From assembly GCF_008727875.1 (NCBI RefSeq), contig NZ_VTWS01000002.1, positions 806,001 to 870,000 of the forward strand: a DNA stretch of 64,000 nucleotides. Direction: 5' to 3'. The position numbers and the translations under genes are program-made. The notes beneath the pieces were generated by a model. That model saw only the letters and a list, made by a program, of their open reading frames with translations, did not search any database and had not been told where the DNA came from. Of the stretch, positions 21,001-31,585 are shown in pieces. Origin of the DNA: Larkinella humicola. GTDB lineage: Bacteria; Bacteroidota; Bacteroidia; Cytophagales; Spirosomataceae. Numbering within the stretch: the first letter of the stretch is position 1; each line of letters begins with the position of its first letter.

Positions 21001-21987
21001 GCCGACTAATTCGGACGGTTCATACCCCAAAGCGTGGGCACCCGCACTGTTGACGGTGAGCAGTTTCCCCTCCAGATCATGGATGCACATGAGCCCCTGA
21101 GAGTTTTCAAAAAACGACCGGAATTTGTTTTCCGACTGGAACAACAGAAGTTCTTTCTCTTTCTCGTCGGTAATGTCCCGGGCAATGGCAAACAGATACC
21201 CGGTGCCGGGTTCGGGGGTCGCTACCCATTGCAGGTTCCGGTAAGTGCCGTTTTGACAACGAAACCGGTGGGCAAAATTGATGGTTGACCGGCCCGATGC
21301 CAGTTCGGCAATTTCATCGCGGGTAGCTTGTAGGTCATCCGGATGTACTAAATCAAAAAAGGAAGTTTGCAGCAGGTAGGACTCATCCCATCCGAGTACA
21401 TCATGAAAAGCCGGGTTGAGTTTTTTAAAATAGCCATCTGTACCCGCAACACAGATCAGGTCATTGGACAGCGCAAAGAGGTTCCCGAGGTATTTCAGCT
21501 CCTGGTTCTGGCGATGTTTAATAATCAGTTCAATAACCGCATCACCCAACAGGCGTAACGATTTTTGCTGGCTTTCGGTGAGTTGCCGGGGAATTCGATC
21601 CAGTACACAAAGCGTTCCCAAGGCATACCCATCGGAATCGGTCAACGGATAACCGGCGTAAAACCGGATGTGGGGATCTGAAGTGACCAGCGGATTCTCT
21701 TTAAAGCGCGTATCACGCGTGGCATCTTCCACTTCGAAGAGGTCACTATTCAGAATAGCGTACCGACAAAAAGCGATGTCCCGGCTGGTTTCTTTCAGAT
21801 CAAGGCCAACCCTTGATTTAAACCATTGCCGATTATCGTCGATGAGCGACACCAACGAAATCGGAACCTGGCAAATCAGGGATGCCAGCTCGGTCAGCCG
21901 GTCAAATTCCTTCTCGGGAACCGTGTCCAGAATCTGGTACCGGTGCAAAGCCTTTACTCTTTCATGCTCATTAAATGGAATTGGCAT
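18070..21987 (-). CDS. Hybrid sensor histidine kinase with GAF, PAS, two REC and HPt domains
   Basis: A 1305-residue hybrid kinase carrying a whole phosphorelay in one chain. Approximate order: GAF 1-155 (opening NEHERVKALHRYQILDT), several PAS/PAC units to about 660, HisKA with MSHEIRTPLNG near 677, HATPase to about 900 (N box NLLGNAVKFTD, GTGLGLTIS), REC1 from about 914 (LMDYHMP), REC2 from about 1057 (LMDVQMP) and a C-terminal HPt with the phospho-His in GHKLYGTA near 1245. No transmembrane helix is obvious, so it probably senses a cytoplasmic signal. The start at MPIPFNEHER was preferred over a Met 18 codons upstream because related proteins begin there. No cognate output regulator is adjacent. 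Confidence 0.92.
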   Translation of the reverse strand: MPIPFNEHERVKALHRYQILDTVPEKEFDRLTELASLICQVPISLVSLIDDNRQWFKSRVGLDLKETSRDIAFCRYAILNSDLFEVEDATRDTRFKENPLVTSDPHIRFYAGYPLTDSDGYALGTLCVLDRIPRQLTESQQKSLRLLGDAVIELIIKHRQNQELKYLGNLFALSNDLICVAGTDGYFKKLNPAFHDVLGWDESYLLQTSFFDLVHPDDLQATRDEIAELASGRSTINFAHRFRCQNGTYRNLQWVATPEPGTGYLFAIARDITDEKEKELLLFQSENKFRSFFENSQGLMCIHDLEGKLLTVNSAGAHALGYEPSELVGLRLSDIVPEAHQSALTAYLKTISKTGRASGLMHTLTKDGALLIWLFNNILEKELNGHTYVIGNAIDITRRHQLEVDLNRTKEILEQTNEVARIGTWEVNVAQETVYWSTVTKAIHEVPKDYVPDFNAAVSFFKGKNYEQIMEAVNRSVQEGVAYDVELQIVTAKGRTVWIRALGTPEFQDGKCIRLYGTFQDIDERKKAEQALVNEKLRLAAFVEHAPAAVAMFDRDIRYIAVSNRWMEEYHLSGSVLGRSHYEVFPNLSDEWKAIHARCVNGAIEKNEEDIWRPEGWHNDQYLRWEVRPWYQFDGTIGGIMIFTQDITEICLQRDELKKAKSMAEQASLAKSEFLANMSHEIRTPLNGVIGFTDLVLKTALNTTQQQYLSIVNQSANTLLSIINDILDFSKIEAGKLELAIEKTDVYEISSQVADTITYQAQNKGLEVLLNLSVDLPRFVFVDSVRLKQVLVNLLGNAVKFTDKGEIELKITALGDGAEDHVTFRFEVRDTGIGIKPEMQERIFDAFSQEDPSTTKKYGGTGLGLTISNKLLGLMGSQLQLTSKPGEGSCFFFEIKLKAEPGDAIVWRDAIPIKNVLIVDDNAHNRLILRQMFLLKNIEVEEVSNGFEALQLLDRSKKYDVILMDYHMPYMDGLETIQKIRTSFSSSPGEQPIIFLHSSSDDEKIMKACESLAVNQRLVKPIKMQELYQALHRLVQQEDKSVPTLSDEKATVDRKAVKVLIVEDNKINLLLAKVIVGRLAPNAHILEAANGVEAVQGYIRESPDLILMDVQMPLMNGYEATQRIRELEKDRRIPIVALTAGTVKGEREKCLAAGMDDFLTKPIVEESLASLFRVWLWAEPKTAHAVDQFAERNAHFDLEVIKKMAGHDLALVRELVEVAGDELRKSIPQLLLQAEKANLAGLKAAGHKLYGTAVSAGMPDLAALARTLEYLERFDAENVNELLGRVQSEIELVLDAMANRPGTES

Positions 21988-22113
21988 GGCATTGATTACG
22001 GTGTATAAAATTACCGTAATCAACAGCATTTTCCAGGCCAAGTTACCAATATGAGCGATTTGTACACATAAATTAATCCGAATGAATGGCTTGCTTGTAC
22101 CTATCTGTTGTTC

Positions 22114-23466
22114 TTACGCCCGATCTGTGGACACACTTTTGTAAATTCGGTGGGTCGCATTGTGATCCCGTGGCAAAATAGAGCGGAATACATACCCGAC
22201 AGCAAGCGCCAGACCCAAGCAAAGGGCAACCGTAGTCACCACGGTTTTCAGCACCAGACCAATTCCGATCAGTAACAGAAAATTGATAAAAATACTCCAG
22301 CCACTCACATTACTTTTTGCCTGACCAAAACTCAGGCTGTTGTGTACCCGAAACGCTTTGTACTGCGAAAAAAGAAGGCCATTCAAACTGAAGCAAACCG
22401 TACTGATGAGGTAAAAAGAGAGCAGGTACCCACTCAACAGGTTTAAGTAGGCAAGGACGCTGACGGTTACGATCAGATCGATCAGAACAGGAATGATAAA
22501 AAGCTGAGAATAAATCAAATACACCTCCGAACGGTTCCTTAACGCACCGTTGATCCACAAAGCCGGAAAGAATCCCCAGCTATTATTGGCCACATAATTG
22601 AATATGATGATTGGAGAAACGTATAAGAGAAGCAGAAAATCGGCCATCGAAAAATCACTCGCTGACATCTTTGATGAAAACAATAGCAACAGCGCTTTCA
22701 TCAGGATTCCGAACGCAAAGGCTTTCCGCGTTTGGGCATTGTTGATGAAGGCCGTATAAACCGGTGACAGGTAGTTTGTCTTTACGAGCAGAACCGTTGA
22801 TTCCGTTCTCGCTACAGCAGCCCGATCCACTAAAAACAAGAGTATAGTTTGGCTGGCTAATGCAACACTCACTATAAGAAGTAATCCGGTTGGATCGAAC
22901 CGCCAATGCCAGACCGAAAAACCGATCACTCCACTGAGCATTCCCCAGCTTAACAGGAATACCGCTTGCCACCGGTGCGACGATTCCAGGAACGCTTTCA
23001 GCAGTTGAACAAAAACCACCGCGTTGCCCAGCAACAGGAGTGAACTCACCAGATGGGCGTTGGTGTACGTTTTCGAAAATGCGTTCAGGATGACGAAAAG
23101 GAATCCCGAACCAACCACCGAAGCCGTAAACGCATCATATAACAGCGTCCCGATCCACTGAGAGCGATATGGAATCGGAAAGGTTTTCGAAAACAGCGTT
23201 GACCGCGGTGTATAGGCCGGAAAGAATTCCGTCCACACCCACTGCCCACAGACGACGCCGTTGCTGATCAGGATGAGATTGGCGGGATTAGCTACGATTT
23301 TGTCAGAAGTGGCGGCCAAATCGATCAGCCAGCCGGTAGCACCCACGCTCAACGCCAGAGCAGCCATAAAAACAAACCGCAGGCTCAGTCCGAGAATCGA
23401 CTCCACACTCCGGAAGATGCCAACAAACCGCCGACGCAAGGCGAAAAAGAGGATAGGAAACATCAT
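22114..23466 (-). CDS. ABC transporter permease-like membrane protein
   Basis: A 450-residue protein with roughly ten hydrophobic segments and no recognised catalytic motif. It follows the ABC ATPase gene by 8 bp on the same strand, so it is the likely membrane partner. The N terminus (two Met codons, then PILFFALRRRFVGIFR) resembles Bacteroidota ABC-2-type permeases that start with a cytoplasmic Arg-rich segment. With the ATPase it would form an exporter; its place at the end of a bacteriocin-like locus makes self-protection a reasonable guess. The substrate is not known. Confidence 0.7.
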   Translation of the reverse strand: MMFPILFFALRRRFVGIFRSVESILGLSLRFVFMAALALSVGATGWLIDLAATSDKIVANPANLILISNGVVCGQWVWTEFFPAYTPRSTLFSKTFPIPYRSQWIGTLLYDAFTASVVGSGFLFVILNAFSKTYTNAHLVSSLLLLGNAVVFVQLLKAFLESSHRWQAVFLLSWGMLSGVIGFSVWHWRFDPTGLLLIVSVALASQTILLFLVDRAAVARTESTVLLVKTNYLSPVYTAFINNAQTRKAFAFGILMKALLLLFSSKMSASDFSMADFLLLLYVSPIIIFNYVANNSWGFFPALWINGALRNRSEVYLIYSQLFIIPVLIDLIVTVSVLAYLNLLSGYLLSFYLISTVCFSLNGLLFSQYKAFRVHNSLSFGQAKSNVSGWSIFINFLLLIGIGLVLKTVVTTVALCLGLALAVGYVFRSILPRDHNATHRIYKSVSTDRA

Positions 23467-23474
23467 TCGGGAGG

Positions 23475-24224
23475 TTAGAGCCAGTCGAAAGTGGTTTGCT
23501 TGGTCTTTGGCACTAAAATCTCGAACAGAGCCTCATTGATGACTTTGGTGCCTTGTTCGGTAAAATCCGCCAGTTCGCCGTCAAATTTGATCTGCGTCTC
23601 ATCCAGCACCAGAATGCGCGTGGCGATTTCTTCCAGGTAACTCAGGTCGTGGGACGCAACCAGGATGATGCGGTCGGCCCGCCGATAGGTTTGCAGAAAG
23701 GAAATCAACTGACGGACGGCTATCGGATCGAGACCGGCAAACGGTTCGTCCAGGATTACGACCGACGGAATGTGCAGAATCGCGGCACAGAAACCAATCT
23801 TTTTGATCATCCCCGTCGAATACTGGCTCATCTTCTTTTTCAGGACGCCGGGTTCATCAAAAAAGAAATCGGTCAAGTCCGTCGAGCGTTTTTGAAACGT
23901 CGCGTCGTCGAGCTTGTGAATCAAGCCCATAAAGCGCAGGTAGTCCGCTCCGGTAAATTCGGGCACAGGCGGAATGGCGTCGGACACGATGCCCAGCACC
24001 CGTTTCAACGGCAACCGATCGCCGGTTAACTCCTCGCCTTTGAAATAGAATTCCCCGCTATCTGGCGCAATCAGGTCGATCAGGCAATTCAGAAAGGTAG
24101 TTTTTCCCGACCCGTTTTTGCCCAGCAACCCAATCACATCGCCACCCCGAAAGGTCAGATTGAGGGCATCGAGCACGGTTTTTCCCGAATAGGATTTACG
24201 GAGTTCTTTAATGACCAGTTCCAT
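23475..24224 (-). CDS. ABC transporter ATP-binding protein
   Basis: A 249-residue single nucleotide-binding domain. Walker A is GKNGSGKT (35-42), Walker B VVILDEPFAGLDP (about 155-167), and the switch His is in VASHDLSYLEE. The signature motif is YSTGM in place of LSGGQ, as in several ABC-2 ATPases of the drug and bacteriocin-immunity type. It starts a two-gene unit with the permease. A 21-bp site 47-67 bp upstream of its ATG is nearly identical to one upstream of the HTH regulator of the peptide locus. Confidence 0.88.
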   Translation of the reverse strand: MELVIKELRKSYSGKTVLDALNLTFRGGDVIGLLGKNGSGKTTFLNCLIDLIAPDSGEFYFKGEELTGDRLPLKRVLGIVSDAIPPVPEFTGADYLRFMGLIHKLDDATFQKRSTDLTDFFFDEPGVLKKKMSQYSTGMIKKIGFCAAILHIPSVVILDEPFAGLDPIAVRQLISFLQTYRRADRIILVASHDLSYLEEIATRILVLDETQIKFDGELADFTEQGTKVINEALFEILVPKTKQTTFDWL

Positions 24225-24270
24225 CGTGAAAGAAAGTAGTTGTGTGGGCCAACGACTGGGTTTGACAACG

Positions 24271-24291
24271 TTAGGATTGGTTATCAGACGT
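24271..24291 (-). promoter_or_regulatory. Shared 21-bp site, copy 2 (upstream of the ABC ATPase)
   Basis: The plus strand reads TTAGGATTGGTTATCAGACG plus T, 19/21 identical to the copy at 30711. Both copies have the same orientation to the gene they precede. It lies between the end of the C39 exporter gene and the ATPase start, and is a probable operator or activator site. Confidence 0.6.
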
Positions 24292-24348
24292 GATTAATCC
24301 GAAAAAGGCACATCTATCCCTGTTGAATAGCATTCTTTCACCCGACAT

Positions 24349-26535
24349 TCAGGAAAACACAGCCACTGCTTTCTGCTCTTCCAGACAGCCTGTGGTCAAA
24401 CCGTATACCCGGTCCGTCAGTTGTACCGACTGGCTGCGGTGCGTTACCAATACCGTAGCCAATTGGGGGCGTAGCCGGTTGAGGAGTTCCAATACAAACT
24501 GCTCGGTCTGGCGGTCGAGTGCCGAAGTTGCTTCATCCAGCAACAGCAGTTGTGGACGCCGGTACAACGCCCGAGCCAGCCCCACCAGTTGCTGTTGTCC
24601 GCCGGAGAGATTAATACCTTCTTCACCAACCAAGGTAAAGTAGCTTTGCGGAAGGGATTCAAAATACCGGTCAAAACCGTGTTTCTGGCAAAAGTGAACG
24701 ACTGCTTCACCTTCTTCCAGCACATTGCCCAGGCAAATGTTGTCCAGCAGCGTCCCGTTAAAAATCTTGATCGATTGTGGGACGCAGGCAATTCGGTTGC
24801 GCCAGTCTTCCAATGAGATATCTGACCAGGAAACCGTCTTTTCAGCCCAATTCAGTGACGTGACGCCAACATTCAGTTGCCCGGTTTCGGGTTCGTAAAA
24901 CTTTTGAAGAAGTTGCAACAGCATACTCTTCCCCGAGCCGGTTTCACCAACAATGCCAACAATCTCTCCCCGCCTGACGGTAAACGAGACATTTTTCAAC
25001 AGAGCCGGGCGACCGGGAAAGCGGAAAGAGAGATTCTCTACGGTAAGCGAGGTCAGATGCTGATCCGCTGGGGTCATCTCGCCCATCGTTTCTTTCGGCA
25101 GTTCCGTAAACTCCCGCATTCGATCAAAGGCTACACGGGCTTCCTGTAATTGAATATTGGTGGTTGAAAGCTTCGAAACGGAAGAAATCAGCGTGCTGGC
25201 CATACTAATAATCGCCATCATTTCGCCGAGTAACAGGTGCTTTTGCAACACCATGAAAGCCGTTACGCTGATCAGAGCCATCAACAAACCGACGCCGAAT
25301 ACCTCACTGAGAATGCCATACCGGTTTCCCAGCAAACCCAGGTCATAGAGTTTATGCTGGAACAATTGATAAACGCTTTGGGTAATGCGGGCAAAAAACT
25401 CCTCCCGCCGACCGGCTTTGATCGCGCCAATACCGCTCATGCTATCGATAAAGTGAGATTCGGTGCGGGCGTAGGACGCCATCACCTCGCGTTGCCCGGT
25501 GATAATCAAACCATTAAACCGCCAGACCAACCAGCCGTATAACGGAAAACTCAGCAGCGACAACAACCCAATCTGCCAGGAATAACGAAAAAGTACCCCA
25601 GCCGTAATCAGAACGACCAGGGTGTCGATGACCACGCTGCCAGTCAGAAAACTGATGGTGCTTTGAATCCGGCGGGTGTCGTTCAAGCGGGCGACCAGAT
25701 CGCCGGTTTTGCGGGTATCAAAAAACGCTTTGGGTAACCGAAGTAAATCCCGGAAAAAACTGTCGGCAATCCGGATGTTGAATTCACGGCTTTGGCGCAG
25801 GAGAAAGAAACTCCGCAGGTAATTCAATCCGGACCGAGCCAGCAACAACACCGCCAATAAAATCAATCCCCAAGTGAGTTTTTCGGTATTCTGCTTCGGC
25901 AGGATGTCGTCGATCAATCGTTGGGAAAACAGGGCCATCGACAGCCCGAGGACGGCAATCAGAATTCCCAAACCAGCCGCTATACCCAGCAGCGGCACAT
26001 CGTCACGGATCAATGCCTGAAACCACTGCCATTGGCCTTTTTGCTGCTGACCGGTTTGGACGAAAGACTCGGTTGGCGTGACCTGCAGCAATGCTCTTGA
26101 TTGCCAGATGGTTTCCAGTTCGTCCGCCGTCATCTCGACCACGCCCTTGCCGGGATCACCGATGCGGTATTTTACCCCGGAAGAAGGATTCGTCTGTCCT
26201 TTTGGAAGACTGGCGGGTATGATTCCATAAAATACCACATAATGCTGCAACCGCTCTTCCAGAACTACGTGCAGAACGACCGGCATGGTCAGATCATGCA
26301 GATTCTGAACGCCATCCGCTTCAAAACCCTCGGCCTCCAAACCCAGTCCCGTTGCCGCCTGGCACAATCCCAGCATCGTGGTGCCCTGAATGCTGGTGCC
26401 GCTCAGTTCGCGCAGCCGCTCACGCGAGACGTCTCCGCCGTGGTAACGAACCAGCGACAGCAAACAGGCCACTCCGCAGTCGGTTTGGTCAAGCTGCCGG
26501 GTGAAGGTTTTGGTAATGCGTTGGGGTGTGGTCAT
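24349..26535 (-). CDS. Peptidase-containing ABC exporter (PCAT) for double-glycine leader peptides
   Basis: A 728-residue transporter that both cuts off GG leaders and exports the mature peptide. The N-terminal C39 peptidase (about 1-140) has the catalytic Cys20 in QTDCG and His98 in LQHYVVF. The transmembrane exporter domain spans about 170-450. The C-terminal nucleotide-binding domain has Walker A GETGSGKS (near 523), signature LSGGQQQ and Walker B LLLLDEATSALD. It is therefore a complete, plausibly active PCAT. Its ATG overlaps the stop of the thioredoxin-like gene (ATGA). The two GG-leader peptides 2 kb upstream on the same strand are the obvious substrates. Confidence 0.95.
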   Translation of the reverse strand: MTTPQRITKTFTRQLDQTDCGVACLLSLVRYHGGDVSRERLRELSGTSIQGTTMLGLCQAATGLGLEAEGFEADGVQNLHDLTMPVVLHVVLEERLQHYVVFYGIIPASLPKGQTNPSSGVKYRIGDPGKGVVEMTADELETIWQSRALLQVTPTESFVQTGQQQKGQWQWFQALIRDDVPLLGIAAGLGILIAVLGLSMALFSQRLIDDILPKQNTEKLTWGLILLAVLLLARSGLNYLRSFFLLRQSREFNIRIADSFFRDLLRLPKAFFDTRKTGDLVARLNDTRRIQSTISFLTGSVVIDTLVVLITAGVLFRYSWQIGLLSLLSFPLYGWLVWRFNGLIITGQREVMASYARTESHFIDSMSGIGAIKAGRREEFFARITQSVYQLFQHKLYDLGLLGNRYGILSEVFGVGLLMALISVTAFMVLQKHLLLGEMMAIISMASTLISSVSKLSTTNIQLQEARVAFDRMREFTELPKETMGEMTPADQHLTSLTVENLSFRFPGRPALLKNVSFTVRRGEIVGIVGETGSGKSMLLQLLQKFYEPETGQLNVGVTSLNWAEKTVSWSDISLEDWRNRIACVPQSIKIFNGTLLDNICLGNVLEEGEAVVHFCQKHGFDRYFESLPQSYFTLVGEEGINLSGGQQQLVGLARALYRRPQLLLLDEATSALDRQTEQFVLELLNRLRPQLATVLVTHRSQSVQLTDRVYGLTTGCLEEQKAVAVFS

Positions 26536-27047
26536 AAGTATTTCAGAATGGCTTCTAGTTTCGTTTCGCCTTTGTATTCTTTGCGCAGGTTGCCATCAGG
26601 GCCGTAAATGAGCAAATGCGGCACGGCGGTTGGGCCGAAGGTTTTATAAAGCTCGTCCGGGGTGAGTATGCCTACGCAAACATTGGCGAGCGTATCCAGC
26701 CCAAACTGTTTCGTAAAAGCACGCACCCGGGCCGGTTTTTCGGTGGTCAGCATCCAGACGTCGGCCTTTTTGAACGCATCGCCGTTTTTGCTGATTTCGG
26801 CGGCTTCGTACTGGCAATGTTCGCAATCGGGATTGAAAAGAATAATGACGTTGGTACGGCCTTTCAACCTAGTTTTCGGTACGGTTTTCGACGGCATTTG
26901 AATCGCCAGTTGGCTAAAATCCGGTACGGTTTGGCGTTTGGCTTTCAATTCATTCGTACTGCTAACGGCACTGACTGTACGGCTAAGAAAATAACCGATC
27001 AGCAACAGAACACCGATCACGACACTGTATTTCAGGCCGGTTTTCAT
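26532..27047 (-). CDS. Membrane-anchored thioredoxin-like protein
   Basis: A 171-residue redoxin of the TlpA/AhpC-TSA type. One N-terminal transmembrane anchor (about 5-22) puts the thioredoxin fold in the periplasm. The active site is C75-E-H-C78 (FNPDCEHCQYEA), and the cis-Pro loop AVPHLLIYG is present. The frame is open further upstream, but the ATG of MKTGLKYSVV gives a standard signal anchor and sits 1 bp after the preceding stop. It overlaps the PCAT gene by 4 bp, so they are coupled. As both predicted exported peptides contain two Cys, a disulfide role is a sensible inference. Confidence 0.85.
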   Translation of the reverse strand: MKTGLKYSVVIGVLLLIGYFLSRTVSAVSSTNELKAKRQTVPDFSQLAIQMPSKTVPKTRLKGRTNVIILFNPDCEHCQYEAAEISKNGDAFKKADVWMLTTEKPARVRAFTKQFGLDTLANVCVGILTPDELYKTFGPTAVPHLLIYGPDGNLRKEYKGETKLEAILKYL

Positions 27048-27048
27048 A

Positions 27049-27690
27049 TCAGGATGTGTAGGTGACGGTGATAAAAACAACCCCGGTGATCCAGAGCAGT
27101 AAGCCGATGCCGTAGGATGATAAAACCAGACTGAACGCTTTAGAGAACGGCATTTCCAGGGTCTGCGTGACGCCATACGCCAGCAAAAACCAGTAGGCTA
27201 CTTCAAATAAATTTAGCACCTGTAAGGGATACAAGTAGTAAGGTGGTAATTCGCTCGCATTGAATAAAGTAAGGGCGGAAAGCGGATAAAACTGACCGAT
27301 TGCGGTTAGGTCAAAATCAGTTTGCACAAACAAAAACCAGAGTAGTTTAAAAAGGATGGGAATTAGAAAAACCAACTCGGCCTGAATCGCTACGCCGAAA
27401 AACCGTTTGAAGGCAAATTGGCTGGTCGCAAAAAAATAGCCGATGCCCAGACAACCCGCAACCAGCCCAAATTTTACGAGGTACAATACCGGCACCAGAA
27501 CATAGCCCAGCCACTGCCACTCTTTACTCTGATCGATCAACTCCTGAATGCGCTCGTAGGTGAGTTGATTGGATAACGAATTAAAATAGAGCTGATCGGA
27601 AATCAAGAAGTATTGAAACGCCCATTGGATTATCAACGCTAAGGCACATAGAAAAAGAAATCGAAAAACATTTACCTGACGTAGTACCAT
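27049..27690 (-). CDS. Polytopic membrane protein of the peptide locus, unknown family
   Basis: A 213-residue protein with about five hydrophobic segments, spaced like a Yip1-type membrane protein, and no catalytic motif. The ATG was preferred over an adjacent upstream GTG. The stop is followed after 1 bp by the thioredoxin-like gene, and that gene overlaps the exporter, so these three form a tight operon. Possible roles are immunity or an exporter accessory part. I do not recognise a characterised homologue. Confidence 0.7.
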   Translation of the reverse strand: MVLRQVNVFRFLFLCALALIIQWAFQYFLISDQLYFNSLSNQLTYERIQELIDQSKEWQWLGYVLVPVLYLVKFGLVAGCLGIGYFFATSQFAFKRFFGVAIQAELVFLIPILFKLLWFLFVQTDFDLTAIGQFYPLSALTLFNASELPPYYLYPLQVLNLFEVAYWFLLAYGVTQTLEMPFSKAFSLVLSSYGIGLLLWITGVVFITVTYTS

Positions 27691-27777
27691 CACTTATTTT
27701 CGTTAAACAAAACATAGAATAGGGAGCAAATTGCATCGAGATCAGGAATGATAACGATCTAACCTAGAAAACCATTT

Positions 27778-27990
27778 CTACTTTTCTCCATTTTTGCTAT
27801 TGTATATAAATCCCCGAATGATGTTAATAGTTAGTACAAAAGTCATAATCAGATAATCTTCATTCGCCGACGTATTCAAAAAAATAATTCTATATGCAGT
27901 GTATAGCCATAAAACAATTAAGAAGATAAATGATAGTCTTTTGAATACATACCAAATTTTAATTCTTTCCATAACTAAATCAAAAGACAT
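27778..27990 (-). CDS. Small two-helix membrane protein, immunity candidate
   Basis: A 70-residue protein with two hydrophobic stretches (about 18-38 and 45-60) and a Lys-rich end. Its coding sequence is AT-rich, unlike genes on either side of the locus. An alternative start six codons in (MERIKIW) is possible. Small basic membrane proteins beside bacteriocin genes are often immunity proteins; that is the only basis for the role, and whether it is translated has not been shown. Confidence 0.5.
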   Translation of the reverse strand: MSFDLVMERIKIWYVFKRLSFIFLIVLWLYTAYRIIFLNTSANEDYLIMTFVLTINIIRGFIYNSKNGEK

Positions 27991-28231
27991 TTTAGATTAT
28001 CTCAAAAAATCATTCTAAATTTCAAAATTTACTCATATTAGACAATAAGGTTTCACTCATTAAATTTATCATCCTTAAAAAAGTAAAAGTAATCCCGTAC
28101 GATTATTAAAGCAATTGCAATGATTATTACTGGACTAAAGAAAGTACATACTCATTGCTTTCTTTTTTATACTGACAATCGTTAAAATAAGCAATTAATC
28201 CAAAACATTTTTTACAATAAACTATAAAAGC
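27991..28231. other. AT-rich intergenic region in the peptide locus
   Basis: About 240 bp of strongly AT-rich sequence with no open frame worth calling. Its composition is unlike the GC-rich flanks and suggests recent acquisition. A small inverted repeat (AATAAACT...AGTTTATT, 28216-28243) sits at its end and overlaps the stop of the next gene. Confidence 0.5.
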
Positions 28232-28423
28232 TTACAGTTTATTATTATCACTTTTTTTTGATTTTAAGAAAAACACGAAAATAGCTAAAGCAGAAATAAA
28301 GCCAATTATAGTCATAATGTCGTCTTCACTAAGGGATTTAATTTGTTTCCCAAAAAGCAAGAATAGCAACATGAAAGAAACAGCAAAAGCTAATATTGAG
28401 AAAATGTATCGTTTACCATTCAT
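28232..28423 (-). CDS. Small two-helix membrane protein directly after the peptides, immunity candidate
   Basis: A 63-residue protein with two transmembrane helices (about 6-23 and 37-56), separated by a short acidic loop (SLSEDD), and a Lys/Ser-rich C terminus. The ATG of MNGKRYIF was chosen because it gives a positively charged N terminus before the first helix. It lies 56 bp after the second GG-leader peptide on the same strand. This is the classic position for a bacteriocin immunity gene. There is no family match that I can name. Confidence 0.55.
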   Translation of the reverse strand: MNGKRYIFSILAFAVSFMLLFLLFGKQIKSLSEDDIMTIIGFISALAIFVFFLKSKKSDNNKL

Positions 28424-28479
28424 CTTTTGTAGGGAATTAGGTAGTTTGCAATTATTGCAAACTACCTGGTTATTAAAAA

Positions 28480-28680
28480 TTATCGATTCATAGCGTATAT
28501 TGCACAACCGACATTTGAACCAACTAGCCAGGCAACTCCCCAGCCTGACATCGACAATGCAACACCTGCAAGAGGTGCTGATGCAATAAGCATATCAACT
28601 CCAGCAATGCCAGCACAATATCCAGCCGCGAAACCTCCACCTTGTAGAGTTGCAAGTTCCGTTATTGATAAATTCTTCAT
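28480..28680 (-). CDS. Double-glycine leader peptide B (bacteriocin-like)
   Basis: A 66-residue precursor peptide. The leader MKNLSITELATLQGG fits the canonical GG-leader pattern exactly: Leu at -12, Glu at -8, Leu at -7, Leu at -4 and Gly-Gly at -2/-1. The predicted core of 51 residues starts GFAAGYCAG, is Gly/Ala-rich and hydrophobic, has Cys at core positions 7 and 44, and contains GxxxG motifs (GYCAG, GSNVG). The ATG was chosen because it gives a leader of the right length. Its start is 11 bp after the stop of peptide A. Such tandem pairs resemble two-peptide class II bacteriocins; activity is not shown. Confidence 0.8.
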   Translation of the reverse strand: MKNLSITELATLQGGGFAAGYCAGIAGVDMLIASAPLAGVALSMSGWGVAWLVGSNVGCAIYAMNR

Positions 28681-28691
28681 AATTGTTGCAA

Positions 28692-28904
28692 TTATCTGAT
28701 ATATACTGATCCTAACAAACCAGCAGTGCATGCACTAATTCCAGCAGCACCACCTGCGGCAATTGCTGGAATTCCTATTCCAGCAGTCATCAATGAGCCT
28801 GCAAAGGCAAGTACACCTATTCCCGCAACGCAACCTACGCCAGCCCAGGTTTGCCAATCTCCGCCATAAAGATCTTCCATTTGGCACATTTCAATTTTTT
28901 GCAT
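28692..28904 (-). CDS. Double-glycine leader peptide A (bacteriocin-like)
   Basis: A 70-residue precursor with the leader MQKIEMCQMEDLYGG: Ile at -12, Met at -7, Leu at -4 and Gly-Gly at -2/-1. The predicted 55-residue core opens DWQTWAGVGC and is then nearly all Gly, Ala, Ile, Leu and Val. It has Cys at positions 10 and 44 and GxxxG motifs (GCVAG, GGAAG). The two-Cys layout mirrors peptide B, consistent with one disulfide each. The frame is open far upstream, but that part overlaps the glycosyltransferase gene and looks unlike coding sequence. A strong hairpin lies 57 bp upstream of the start. Confidence 0.8.
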   Translation of the reverse strand: MQKIEMCQMEDLYGGDWQTWAGVGCVAGIGVLAFAGSLMTAGIGIPAIAAGGAAGISACTAGLLGSVYIR

Positions 28905-28960
28905 AATGATGTATGTTTTACCGCCATTCCCCGTTGAATGACCCTCCAAACATCGCACTT

Positions 28961-28985
28961 CCCACTGCACTGAGAATGCAGTGGG
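28961..28985. repeat. Perfect 9-bp hairpin upstream of the peptide genes
   Basis: CCCACTGCA and TGCAGTGGG flank a 7-nt loop. In the gene direction the T-run precedes the hairpin rather than following it, so it is not an intrinsic terminator for the glycosyltransferase. It could protect or delimit the 5' end of a processed peptide message. Confidence 0.6.
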
Positions 28986-29004
28986 AAAAAAATGTAGAAA
29001 AATT

Positions 29005-30369
29005 TTAAGATTTTTTTTCACCGAATAACGCAAATAAAGCCGTACTCCCGTCAAAATCCTGCAATTGCTCCCGGAATGCCAATAGTTTTTGCCTGAATTT
29101 TGGCTCCGTCAGCAGTTGAATCATCTTTTGCTCCATGTCCCCCGGGCGGTCTTTGCGCAGATTGCCGGTCAGTCCACAGCCGAAATAGGCCAGCCGGGCG
29201 GTATACCCGTTCTGGTCCCAGGTGTCGTTGAGCGGATAGGCCAGCATGGGAACCCCGCAAAGGACACCTTCCAACACCGAATTGGGGCCGCCGTGCGTTA
29301 CAAACGCGTCGCAATGCCGGAGCATGTCCACCTGCGGGACCCGCTCAAAAATCCAGCCGTTCGGAATACGGTCCGGTAAAACCGCTTTCAATTCCGGCCC
29401 AACCGACAAAATTAACCGCCAGTTGGGTTGCCGGGCTGCGGCTGCGATCAGCCGTTGATAAAATCCCTTGAGCAAACGCGGTTTAGCGTGGGCGTTCGAG
29501 ACGGTTCCCAAGGAAGCATACATCACTTTTACTTCCGGGTTCGTCTGCCGCTCCTGTGAAAGCTGCTTCAACATGGTTTGATAAGACGATGAAGGGTTTT
29601 CTACCCGCTCGGCATCGATCATCAACCCCAGATGCTGTTGAAAGGGATGAAGCGTTCGCTGCGGAAACTCAAAGGCCCGTGGGTACAGAATCCATTCCGG
29701 CAGGTTATCAAAACCGGTATAAAATGTTTTATCACGGCGAATCCGGTGGTCGTCGGGCAAGCCGTTCTGCCGAAACTTTTGCCGGATGATCCGGTGGTTG
29801 CTCCGGCCCAAATACAATAGGGTTTGCCCCAGTTGTTTGAAAGCCCGGTTTCGGTAATAGGTCCGCCACGCCCGACGGATGGCCCCGACGGAATCCTGAC
29901 CGGGAATACGTTGGCTGTTTAAAGGCGGAGTAGCCGCATCTTCATAGGTCGACAACATGGTTTGCAGCAGAATCACCTCGATTCCTTTGTCTTTAATGAA
30001 TGGGTACAACACGATAAAATCAGTGCTGTAATACGAATCGACGAAGATTAGGGCCGGTTTTAATGCTTCGACCGTACGCTGCAAATCGGCAGAGCGGGCG
30101 CGAAATGTTTTATCGGTAAAGCGATCCAGCAACGATTCCAGATACGACTCGCTTTTCTCTTTGTGCGTAGCTTCCTCTACCCCAATTCCAAACGGCAAAC
30201 TCTGCAACCAATGCACCGCGAATCCCTGCCGGTGAATTTGCTGGGCCAGTTCAGGTTTCCCCAAATACCCGTAAACGATCTGATACCCATCGGATTGCAA
30301 CTGCCTCGCCAGTTTGAACGTCAGATTCAAATGGCCGTAAGCCGGAACCATAAAAAAAAGGGCCGTCAT
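29005..30369 (-). CDS. GT1-family (UGT/MGT-like) glycosyltransferase in the peptide locus
   Basis: A 454-residue GT-B glycosyltransferase. The N-terminal acceptor domain starts MTALFFMVPAYGHLNLTFKLARQL, with the His near the N terminus (GH) expected of the catalytic base. The C-terminal donor loop reads VPQVDMLRHCDAFVTHGGPNSVLEGVLCGVPML, then PLNDTWDQNGYTARL, as in macrolide- and UDP-sugar transferases. The start at the internal ATG makes an ATGA overlap with the stop of the HTH regulator. The gene lies between that regulator and the two GG peptides, so it may glycosylate the peptides. It could instead act on a lipid or pigment. The acceptor is unproven. Confidence 0.85.
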   Translation of the reverse strand: MTALFFMVPAYGHLNLTFKLARQLQSDGYQIVYGYLGKPELAQQIHRQGFAVHWLQSLPFGIGVEEATHKEKSESYLESLLDRFTDKTFRARSADLQRTVEALKPALIFVDSYYSTDFIVLYPFIKDKGIEVILLQTMLSTYEDAATPPLNSQRIPGQDSVGAIRRAWRTYYRNRAFKQLGQTLLYLGRSNHRIIRQKFRQNGLPDDHRIRRDKTFYTGFDNLPEWILYPRAFEFPQRTLHPFQQHLGLMIDAERVENPSSSYQTMLKQLSQERQTNPEVKVMYASLGTVSNAHAKPRLLKGFYQRLIAAAARQPNWRLILSVGPELKAVLPDRIPNGWIFERVPQVDMLRHCDAFVTHGGPNSVLEGVLCGVPMLAYPLNDTWDQNGYTARLAYFGCGLTGNLRKDRPGDMEQKMIQLLTEPKFRQKLLAFREQLQDFDGSTALFALFGEKKS

Positions 30370-30695
30370 ACCCATAGCCGGATTAGACTTACAAAGCTTC
30401 CGTGAGCAACGGCAGTAGGCGCACCAAAACCGCCCGACAACTCCTCCATCTGCTCATCTTCTAACTTGCGCCGAAACCGAAAGACCAATTCCCCTTCTTC
30501 GGCATAGTAATACGTTCGTCGGATTGGGCAATACGCCAGCGGAACACCCAGCTCATTGACCAACTCGTCGCGGAGTTTATACCAGGCCCGTTCGCTAATG
30601 CCTAATTTCTGGGCTAATTCTTTGGGAGAACCGGTAGCTCGTTTCCGGACAAGACAATTCAGGGATTCGTACCGATTACAAAGTTTCTGAAGCAT
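30366..30695 (-). CDS. Small HTH regulator heading the peptide locus
   Basis: A 109-residue protein with a helix-turn-helix of the HTH_11/DeoR-like type (about 22-50, GSPKELAQKLGISERAWYKLRDELV), then a short beta region with PLAYCPIRRTYYYAEEGELVFRF. Small proteins of this design are, as I recall, often found beside GG-leader peptide genes in Bacteroidota. Its stop overlaps the glycosyltransferase start by ATGA. A conserved 21-bp site lies 16-36 bp upstream of its own ATG, so it may control itself and the ABC unit. The last 25 residues are poorly conserved in type. Confidence 0.7.
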   Translation of the reverse strand: MLQKLCNRYESLNCLVRKRATGSPKELAQKLGISERAWYKLRDELVNELGVPLAYCPIRRTYYYAEEGELVFRFRRKLEDEQMEELSGGFGAPTAVAHGSFVSLIRLWV

Positions 30696-30710
30696 GGTCT
30701 CTACGAATGG

Positions 30711-30731
30711 TTAGGATTAGTTGTCAGACGT
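30711..30731 (-). promoter_or_regulatory. Shared 21-bp site, copy 1 (upstream of the HTH regulator)
   Basis: The plus strand reads TTAGGATTAGTTGTCAGACG plus T, differing from the copy at 24271 at only two positions. The surrounding CTACG...CGTAG forms a wider dyad. It sits just ahead of the regulator ATG, where a repressor or activator would bind. Confidence 0.6.
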
Positions 30732-30774
30732 AGTTACGAGCCTAAAGTCACACCCGGTCGCCTTTATTTTGAAA

Positions 30775-30792
30775 ACCGTTTGAGCAAACGGT
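30775..30792. repeat. Short inverted repeat ahead of the HTH regulator
   Basis: ACCGTTT-GAGC-AAACGGT is a perfect 7-bp dyad about 80 bp upstream of the regulator. It may be a second operator or a small terminator remnant. Confidence 0.35.
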
Positions 30793-30843
30793 CAATAAAG
30801 TAACTCGAATTTATAGACTGGTATCCAGAAGGTTATAAACGCG

Positions 30844-30870
30844 AAAAGTCGGCCACAGGAGCCGACTTTT
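30844..30870 (-). terminator. Terminator after purQ
   Basis: AAAAGTCGGC and GCCGACTTTT form a perfect 10-bp stem with a 7-nt loop. In the purQ direction the stem ends in a T-run. The hairpin is 26 bp past the purQ stop. Confidence 0.8.
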
Positions 30871-30895
30871 CCAATGTCTTAAACGAACCGGATCG

Positions 30896-31585
30896 TTACA
30901 CCAGAACCGTATTCAGCAACTGCTCCAGAATCAGCCGCCCGTCGGTATTGCCCAACAGCGAATCGGCCGCCCGTTCGGGGTGGGGCATCAGCCCGAACAC
31001 ATTTTTGCGTTCATTGGCCACGCCGGCAATGTTGTCCAGACTGCCGTTCGGATTGGCCTCGTCGGTGATGTTTCCCGCTTCGTCGCAATACCGGAAAATG
31101 ATCTGATCGTTGTCGTTCAGTTCATTCAGGGAATCGGCATCAATGAAATACCGGCCTTCGCCGTGGGCAATGGGGATTTTATAGGCCCGATCGTCCAGAC
31201 CGGCGGTTAGCAAAACGCTCTTCGATTGCGGACGGAGGTAGATATTTTTGCAAACGTATTTCTGGTTGGTGTTTCGCAGCAGAACGCCCGGAACCAGCCG
31301 CGCTTCGGCCAGAATCTGGAAACCATTGCAGATGCCCATCAGGTAACCACCCCGCTCGGCGTGTTTGATCACCTCGTTCATGATGGGCGAAAACCGGGCG
31401 ACGGCCCCCGTGCGGAGGTAGTCCCCGTAGGAAAACCCGCCGGGCAGAATGATGAAATCACAGCCCTGCAAATCGTGGTCTTTGTGCCAGAGTTTGACGA
31501 CATCCTGTTTCAGTTGATCACGCAGCGCGTCGACGGCGTCGTCGTCGCAGTTGGAGCCGGGGAATACTACTACACCGAATTTCAT
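30896..31585 (-). CDS. purQ: Phosphoribosylformylglycinamidine synthase subunit PurQ
   Basis: PurQ is the glutaminase subunit that supplies ammonia to PurL for the fourth step of purine synthesis. The 229-residue protein is a class I glutamine amidotransferase with nucleophile Cys86 in GICNGFQ and the His202/Glu204 pair in MPHPERA. The N-terminal FGVVVFPGSNCDDDA is typical of stand-alone PurQ. The presence of a separate purQ implies a small-type PurL and PurS elsewhere. It appears to be monocistronic, with its own terminator. Confidence 0.95.
   Translation of the reverse strand: MKFGVVVFPGSNCDDDAVDALRDQLKQDVVKLWHKDHDLQGCDFIILPGGFSYGDYLRTGAVARFSPIMNEVIKHAERGGYLMGICNGFQILAEARLVPGVLLRNTNQKYVCKNIYLRPQSKSVLLTAGLDDRAYKIPIAHGEGRYFIDADSLNELNDNDQIIFRYCDEAGNITDEANPNGSLDNIAGVANERKNVFGLMPHPERAADSLLGNTDGRLILEQLLNTVLV

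Follow-up and report, generated by a model that had tools for sequence, protein, structure and literature searches.

The two adjoining genes for short peptides with double-glycine (GG) leaders in the window, i.e., the whole 64,000-nucleotide stretch of Larkinella humicola DNA analyzed here, raise the question of what kind of product they specify and how its synthesis is tied to export. The initial annotation considered them a possible new two-peptide bacteriocin resembling class IIb. The peptides, A and B, are encoded within a same-strand series in the order HTH regulator, GT1 enzyme, A, B, two small membrane proteins, multi-TM protein, TlpA-like thioredoxin, PCAT and ABC ATPase/permease, with the PCAT gene downstream of A and B. 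The parts other than the regulator are as follows.

29005..30375, minus strand: GT1-type glycosyltransferase, 456 aa (Pfam UDPGT, 3e-12); its start overlaps the end of the regulator gene
28961-28985, no strand: perfect 9-bp inverted repeat with 7-nt spacer, found in the sequence between the glycosyltransferase gene and A
28904-28692, minus strand: peptide A precursor, 70 aa; MQKIEMCQMEDLYGG, then the core beginning DWQ
28904-28860, minus strand: leader of A, 15 residues ending in GG; core of 55 aa with Cys10 and Cys44
28680-28480, minus strand: peptide B precursor, 66 aa; MKNLSITELATLQGG, then the core beginning GFA
28680-28636, minus strand: leader of B, 15 residues ending in GG; core of 51 aa with Cys7 and Cys44
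28232..28423, minus strand: small membrane protein, 63 aa, two hydrophobic segments
27778..27990, minus strand: small protein, 70 aa, one segment above the hydrophobicity threshold
27049..27693, minus strand: multi-TM protein (YIP), 214 aa, four segments above the hydrophobicity threshold
26532..27050, minus strand: membrane-anchored thioredoxin of the TlpA/AhpC-TSA type (Pfam AhpC-TSA, 27.6 bits, cut-off 26)
24349..26535, minus strand: PCAT (C39 peptidase, ABC membrane domain and ATPase), 728 aa (Pfam PF03412, 4e-25)
23475..24224, minus strand: ABC ATPase, 249 aa (Pfam)
22114..23466, minus strand: partner permease, 450 aa, about ten hydrophobic segments

The peptide pair and its operon

The tandem GG-leader reading frames, separated by 11 bp, had been described in the initial annotation, and coordinates and translations agreed with it. 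The leader of B carries L-12, E-8, L-7, L-4 and GG, and that of A carries I-12, M-7, L-4 and GG, as claimed, together with Q-8. The positions of the core cysteines were likewise borne out when re-read in the sequence.

GxxxG motifs had been put forward as evidence for class IIb. Core A contains two such motifs as compared to 2.27 in shuffled cores, and core B three as compared to 1.32 (556 of 5000 shuffles were as high). Since shuffled cores yield about as many motifs, this argument fails. Class IIb peptides are mostly cationic; the net charge of both cores, counting K, R, D and E, was zero. Neither A nor B matched TIGR03949 (the lactobin/cerein 7B model) in the NCBIfam search or PF10439 in the Pfam search, and the matches of TIGR03949 to two relatives (E of 0.41 and 0.48) were below cut-off. 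Thus, the assignment to the class IIb family was not upheld. The locus resembles class IIb, where activity requires both peptides, in its adjacent pair of GG-leader precursors, but differs from it also in the cysteine pair of each core and in the Gram-negative exporter module. Overall, the Pfam and NCBIfam searches returned no family above cut-off for either peptide; B gave weak matches to the lantibiotic-leader models TIGR03893 (E of 0.095) and PF16934 (E of 0.091), both below cut-off. A pattern scan of genome contigs for close relatives of B (296 stretches) confirmed none. The inverted repeat in front of A is a candidate operator, attenuator or processing site.

The alignment of the PCAT with PCAT1 (4ry2) spans residues 12-720, and the first-motif Cys and the His, to which a catalytic role is assigned in PMC6959990, are kept. 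A second, distant PCAT (33% identity) is encoded outside the window in the same genome (G000:C14:389585-391648). The thioredoxin has a hydrophobic segment at its N-terminus. A relative of the ABC ATPase adjoins a PCAT also in the loci L070, L071, L094 and L100, and its partner permease, for which no match was obtained in Pfam or NCBIfam, may have an immunity or export role. The two small proteins may be regarded as candidate immunity proteins. Pfam and NCBIfam gave no family above cut-off for the 70-aa protein and, apart from TIGR01167, none for the 63-aa protein; the match to TIGR01167 (LPXTG-anchor-like; 18.8 bits, cut-off 15.9) was judged spurious.

Recurrence of the locus and apparent exchange of the peptides

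PCAT matches at E <= 1e-100 were found in 69 of 222 genomes of the family, many of them of a more distant type with about 30% identity, while the multi-TM protein was present in 30 of the 222. In a draw from the phylum, the multi-TM profile matched 20 of 296 genomes, including that of the window. Loci were taken from the family (40) and from the phylum draw (20 of 23 places, the other three being the window, a second match in a stretch already taken and one weak place). Exclusion of L106-L109, which lack the multi-TM protein, left 57 scanned loci (the window, L070-L105 and L238-L257).

The multi-TM protein and a C39 domain occurred together in 45 of the 57 loci. At least one reading frame combining a GG leader with a hydrophobic core, as selected by our own filter, was present in 43 of these 45. 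The initial annotation had made its proposal depend on conserved co-occurrence of the peptides with a PCAT in related genomes, and co-occurrence of peptides of this kind with a PCAT was indeed observed. This recurrence with the multi-TM protein and C39 supports the bacteriocin-like part of the proposal, i.e., two-cysteine precursors exported by a PCAT. Since 57 of 67 leader-peptide cores from these loci contained exactly two cysteines, this feature is a rule of the locus group rather than a coincidence of A and B. Two or more precursors were counted in 21 of the 45 loci, one in 22 and none in two.

The weaker multi-TM matches L247-L251 and L254-L257, with no C39 in the locus, were judged unrelated. 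No C39 was found in locus L240 either, which had a strong multi-TM match. In L252, whose multi-TM protein is related to that of the window at 5e-22, a precursor with a 15-residue leader and four core cysteines lies 732 nt past the start of the multi-TM frame. Its gene is flanked by those for the multi-TM protein and C39, in agreement with the order reported for bacteroidetocins.

Comparison of 28 peptides revealed pairs that are inherited together. Peptides 1 and 2 of L073, L080 and L087 matched one another in order, as did those of L070, L189 and L078, with z of 3.7 to 23.6 in 12 within-order comparisons as compared to 2.9 and 1.4 in two cross comparisons. Relatives of B were found in L238 (z of 6.1) and L079 (z of 6.0), while none above z of 2.7 was found for A among these 28 peptides, nor was the combination of A and B found at another locus. 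In L238, two precursors adjoin one another next to a multi-TM protein, a thioredoxin and C39, and the second of them is the relative of B.

The flanks of the pair were conserved in Larkinella punicea, where 28855-31000 of the window aligned at 92%, 25108-27722 at 94% and 21803-24780 at 91%; between the latter two blocks, 0.3 kb inside the PCAT gene is missing. By contrast, no alignment with L. punicea was obtained for 27723-28854, where this species encodes another peptide pair. The core of A, B and the small membrane genes are swapped, and the border lies just behind the leader of A. We read this difference as an exchange of a cassette of peptide and candidate immunity genes, and a border between leader and core is as expected of toxin-immunity cassettes. 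Peptide pairs appear to be exchanged as cassettes at this border. Similarly, PMC7417737 describes swapped structural genes in otherwise syntenic clusters for the gallocins, which belong to class IIb.

L. punicea retains part of the inverted repeat in front of A despite its different peptides. In the L. punicea copy of the operon (L070/L110), stop codons interrupt the exporter and multi-TM genes and the permease gene has a frame break, so this copy may be decaying; its regulator and glycosyltransferase are intact and 93-96% identical to those of the window.

Assignment of peptides A and B

The gene set of the window was compared by description with that of the bacteroidetocins, for which class IIf was proposed (Coyne et al. 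2019, PMC6671954). Their locus is described there as consisting of four genes, which encode a protein with five TM segments, the peptide, a thiol oxidoreductase and a C39 exporter; leaders have 15-16 residues, and mature peptides have at least two cysteines and a size of 35-50 aa. Membership of the class further entails orthology of the TM protein, the ABC exporter/peptidase and usually the thiol oxidoreductase nearby, a link to bacteroidetocin A or B by (iterated) tblastn, and killing of Bacteroidota. The first five members comprise 42-48 aa, and bacteroidetocins A and B have four cysteines. The window has genes of the same types near the peptides (multi-TM protein, thioredoxin and C39 exporter), and its peptides have 15-residue GG leaders and two cysteines per core. 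It differs in having two precursors with Gly/Ala-rich, two-cysteine cores, which at 55 and 51 aa are narrowly above the given size range, and in additional genes for a GT1 enzyme, small membrane proteins and a regulator with a leader tail. The main text of PMC6671954 does not use the word 'regulator'. Since the cores are slightly longer, Gly/Ala-rich, two-cysteine and two in number, the term 'bacteroidetocin-type locus' is used here rather than 'bacteroidetocin'. The earlier remark that the sequences resemble no known bacteriocin holds for the cores, but not for the machinery, which corresponds in its gene types to the bacteroidetocin set described in that paper.

Taken as a whole, A and B are likely two precursors in an operon of the bacteroidetocin type ('class IIf'-like), giving a secreted and most likely bacteriocin-type product. 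As judged from sequence, the locus is probably a two-peptide variant, and with this pair, export loci of the bacteroidetocin type would extend to environmental Bacteroidota. In this reading, the PCAT would use its C39 domain to cut A and B after GG and would pass the cores into the periplasm, where the anchored thioredoxin would close one disulfide per core, and the multi-TM protein would help. The small membrane proteins, perhaps together with the ABC pair, would protect the producer, while A and B would jointly act on related bacteria. For bacteroidetocins, BamA is the reported target (PMC8546649). According to PMC10352776, they inhibit the strains that make them, so dedicated immunity genes need not exist.

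Whether A and B act jointly is about evenly balanced. The two-peptide reading of the initial annotation is backed indirectly by the co-inheritance of other pairs and by the loci with several precursors. Against it, as also against the best explanation given above, single-precursor loci are as common as multi-precursor loci (22 versus 21 of 45); the size of the cores above the bacteroidetocin range and their lack of charge likewise argue against that explanation. The combination of A and B did not recur. A and B might instead be independent one-peptide bacteriocins that share one exporter and show no synergy. The single-precursor loci and the B-type peptides with other partners in L238 and L079 speak for this, while the two families of pairs inherited together and in order (L073/L080/L087 and L070/L189/L078) speak against it; we consider it possible but rather doubtful.

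A role as signalling peptides rather than toxins is improbable. PCATs export pheromones too. However, the cores are hydrophobic, 51-55 residues long and equipped with a cysteine pair, a thioredoxin gene is present, and the small membrane genes are swapped along with the peptides. Moreover, no histidine kinase was found among the operon genes by Pfam/NCBIfam annotation.

The glycosyltransferase gene between the regulator and A would fit a glycosylated product, in which the GT1 enzyme attaches a sugar to A or B. In the family, relatives of this enzyme were found at 40 places at E <= 1e-40, and the 12 closest (E <= 1.3e-75) all adjoin a gene for the regulator type of the window (F4), a PCAT or a pair of GG peptides. 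Its PDB matches, however, are small-molecule UDP-glycosyltransferases and extend mainly over the C-terminal half, and we regard modification of A or B by this enzyme as unlikely. Glycocin enzymes are of the GT2 type, unlike the GT1/UDPGT-like enzyme of the window. What is shared with glycocins (e.g., PMC12457901) is the clustering of a glycosyltransferase, a Cys-containing PCAT substrate and a thioredoxin-type gene. A close relative was seen in only nine of the 45 loci with multi-TM protein and C39 (the window, L070, L071, L072, L082 in part, L088, L089, L091 and L094), so the glycosyltransferase is not a core part of the locus type but belongs to a subset of these clusters; its acceptor might be the peptides, a lipid or another molecule. 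More divergent glycosyltransferases (25-28% identity) adjoin an F4 gene or multi-TM protein in L191, L194, L200 and L244.

A regulator with a leader-like tail

The first gene of the operon encodes a regulator whose leader-like tail was absent from the initial annotation. In our view, this regulator is a larger prize than the peptide pair and may couple gene control to export.

30366..30695, minus strand: winged-HTH regulator (F4), 109 aa, first gene of the operon (AlphaFold fold)
30429..30464, minus strand: C39-leader-like motif LEDEQMEELSGG, residues 78-89 of F4, followed by 20 residues

In the AlphaFold model, residues 1-70 (pLDDT 83-95) form three helices and two strands, and the pLDDT of the tail falls per ten residues from 65 to 50, 40 and 39. 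Pfam matches to HTH_17 and HTH_11 were sub-threshold. Foldseek against the PDB gave no match at E <= 0.001, the best being NiaR-like and BirA winged HTHs at 0.07-0.09. The tail LEDEQMEELSGG, with L-12, Q-8, M-7, L-4 and GG, resembles the leader of A, IEMCQMEDLYGG. The C39 leader consensus is L-12, E-8, L-7 and GG (PMC6959990). Position -7 is part of the known contact with C39.

Homologues of F4 were collected in the family (41 of 222 genomes), by pattern in the species genomes (31 loci) and in a phylum draw with the HTH part alone as query, i.e., excluding the tail (46 of 392 genomes). The draw gave 47 places, of which 33 were taken, two were already in the set and 12 weak ones were left out. 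After removal of duplicates and of proteins that continued for over 160 residues past the start of the domain, the set comprised 102 homologues; the HTH profile was built mostly from motif-bearers, part of the set entered via PCAT-selected loci, and the same genomes recur in the family regulator search. GG alone was present in the tails of 49 homologues, compared to 17.4 in shuffled tails (maximum of 28 in 2000). Among these 49, -12 was L, I, F or M in 44, -8 was E or Q in 30 and -4 was I, L, V or M in 40, whereas -7 was L or M in only 16. The strict motif, defined as hydrophobic -12 and -4 followed by GG or AG, was found in 50 of the 102 homologues, compared to 2.7 after shuffling (maximum of 10 in 1000).

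The genomic context was evaluated for homologues with at least 7 kb on both sides, scoring a C39 gene within 9.5 kb or a same-strand GG peptide within 3.5 kb. With relatives treated as independent in each Fisher test, either feature was near 28 of 29 motif-bearers versus 19 of 46 homologues without motif (p of 4e-7), C39 alone near 24 of 29 versus 18 of 46 (p of 2e-4) and a GG peptide alone near 22 of 29 versus nine of 46 (p of 2e-6). The sole exception was L193, with the motif but neither C39 nor GG peptide. In the phylum set (L205-L237), the motif was present in 22 of 33, and C39 accompanied 17 of these 22 versus five of the other 11. Behind the regulator, the start of a GG peptide lay no more than 400 nt away in 22 of 50 motif-bearers versus three of 52 others; in the window, this distance is 1461 nt because the glycosyltransferase gene lies between.

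The same kind of tail, e.g., LPFKEMENISGG, was found in regulators of the LuxR/GerE type (Pfam GerE) in L084, L086, L090, L095 and L258/L281, with GV replacing GG in L086. All five intact close relatives carried it, a further gene (L097 = L259) being broken, and a GG peptide followed each of the five tailed genes. By contrast, none of the 21 more distant LuxR-type relatives that a draw of 200 family genomes yielded had the tail. Of the five loci, only L084, L086 and L090 showed a C39 domain; L281 had none in 18 kb. Neither C39 nor a convincing GG peptide was found in L282 and L283, whose LuxR-type regulators are tail-less.

The F4-type tail occurred in Gracilimonas (Balneolota, as an NAG variant) as well as in Bacteroidota. 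In a Marinifilum record (L126, 2565-12000), a GG-leader precursor and a LanC-like gene come after each of two winged-HTH genes with a leader tail, so this type of regulator is not limited to unmodified peptides. In L128, the winged-HTH form precedes a radical-SAM gene with a GG precursor. Together with the LuxR-type loci, these cases indicate that the tail follows GG-leader peptides of several kinds.

As a sequence pattern, the leader-tailed regulator is strong; its mechanism is putative. Since F4 carries a leader of the same kind as the peptides, the C39 domain may bind or cut its flexible C-terminal leader. Precursors and regulator would then compete for one peptidase groove, and expression would follow how busy the exporter is. 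A cut by C39 would leave the DNA-binding domain in the cytosol and possibly export the short end as a signal, so that one protein would read exporter load and report to the promoter. A control of peptide-export clusters in Bacteroidota, and also Balneolota, by transcription factors (winged-HTH and, separately, LuxR-type) that are ligands or substrates of the exporter is proposed tentatively, at a confidence not far short of even, and the clusters so served would include unmodified two-cysteine pairs, LanC and radical-SAM peptides.

Alternatively, the GG tail may have no tie to C39 and be a chance or structural feature of regulators in such clusters, which is a considerable possibility though below even. 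The weak conservation of -7 is in keeping with this. So are the 19 of 52 motif-less homologues near a C39 gene, some of which come close to the motif or are broken (GRG at the end, a premature stop or a frame break), while others show no trace of the motif. Moreover, controlling for the tree left only four independent pairs on supported branches, too few for a test. The idea that the tail copies the leaders of its own locus was dismissed, since the similarity over 29 loci was not significant (equalled or exceeded in 220 of 2000 permutations). The motif and context counts, however, argue for a tie, as do the recurrence of the tail in an unrelated LuxR-type family, from whose distant relatives it is missing, its association with clusters for unmodified, LanC and radical-SAM peptides, and its occurrence in both Gracilimonas and Bacteroidota.

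If C39 reads the tail, Gram-negative PCAT clusters could control themselves without a sensor kinase, in a feedback that ties the fate of the regulator to its own export machine. The logic would be comparable to that of FlgM and the flagellar exporter. An HTH regulator bearing a GG leader was not described in the literature searched, which did not include most subscription papers and bioRxiv, and it may have been reported elsewhere. A link between part of a PCAT substrate and transcription regulation has been proposed for HetC, a PCAT in cyanobacterial differentiation, where the N-terminal part of the cleaved substrate might be retained in the cell and work with a transcriptional regulator; unlike in the window, the available part of that paper describes no leader-bearing regulator (PMC10986499).

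In five related genomes of the class to which the window belongs (L225, L226, L227, L229 and L230), the end of the regulator behind GG is conserved (RPxLLDGT-like), as if the released end mattered. In L231, the protein stops right behind GG.
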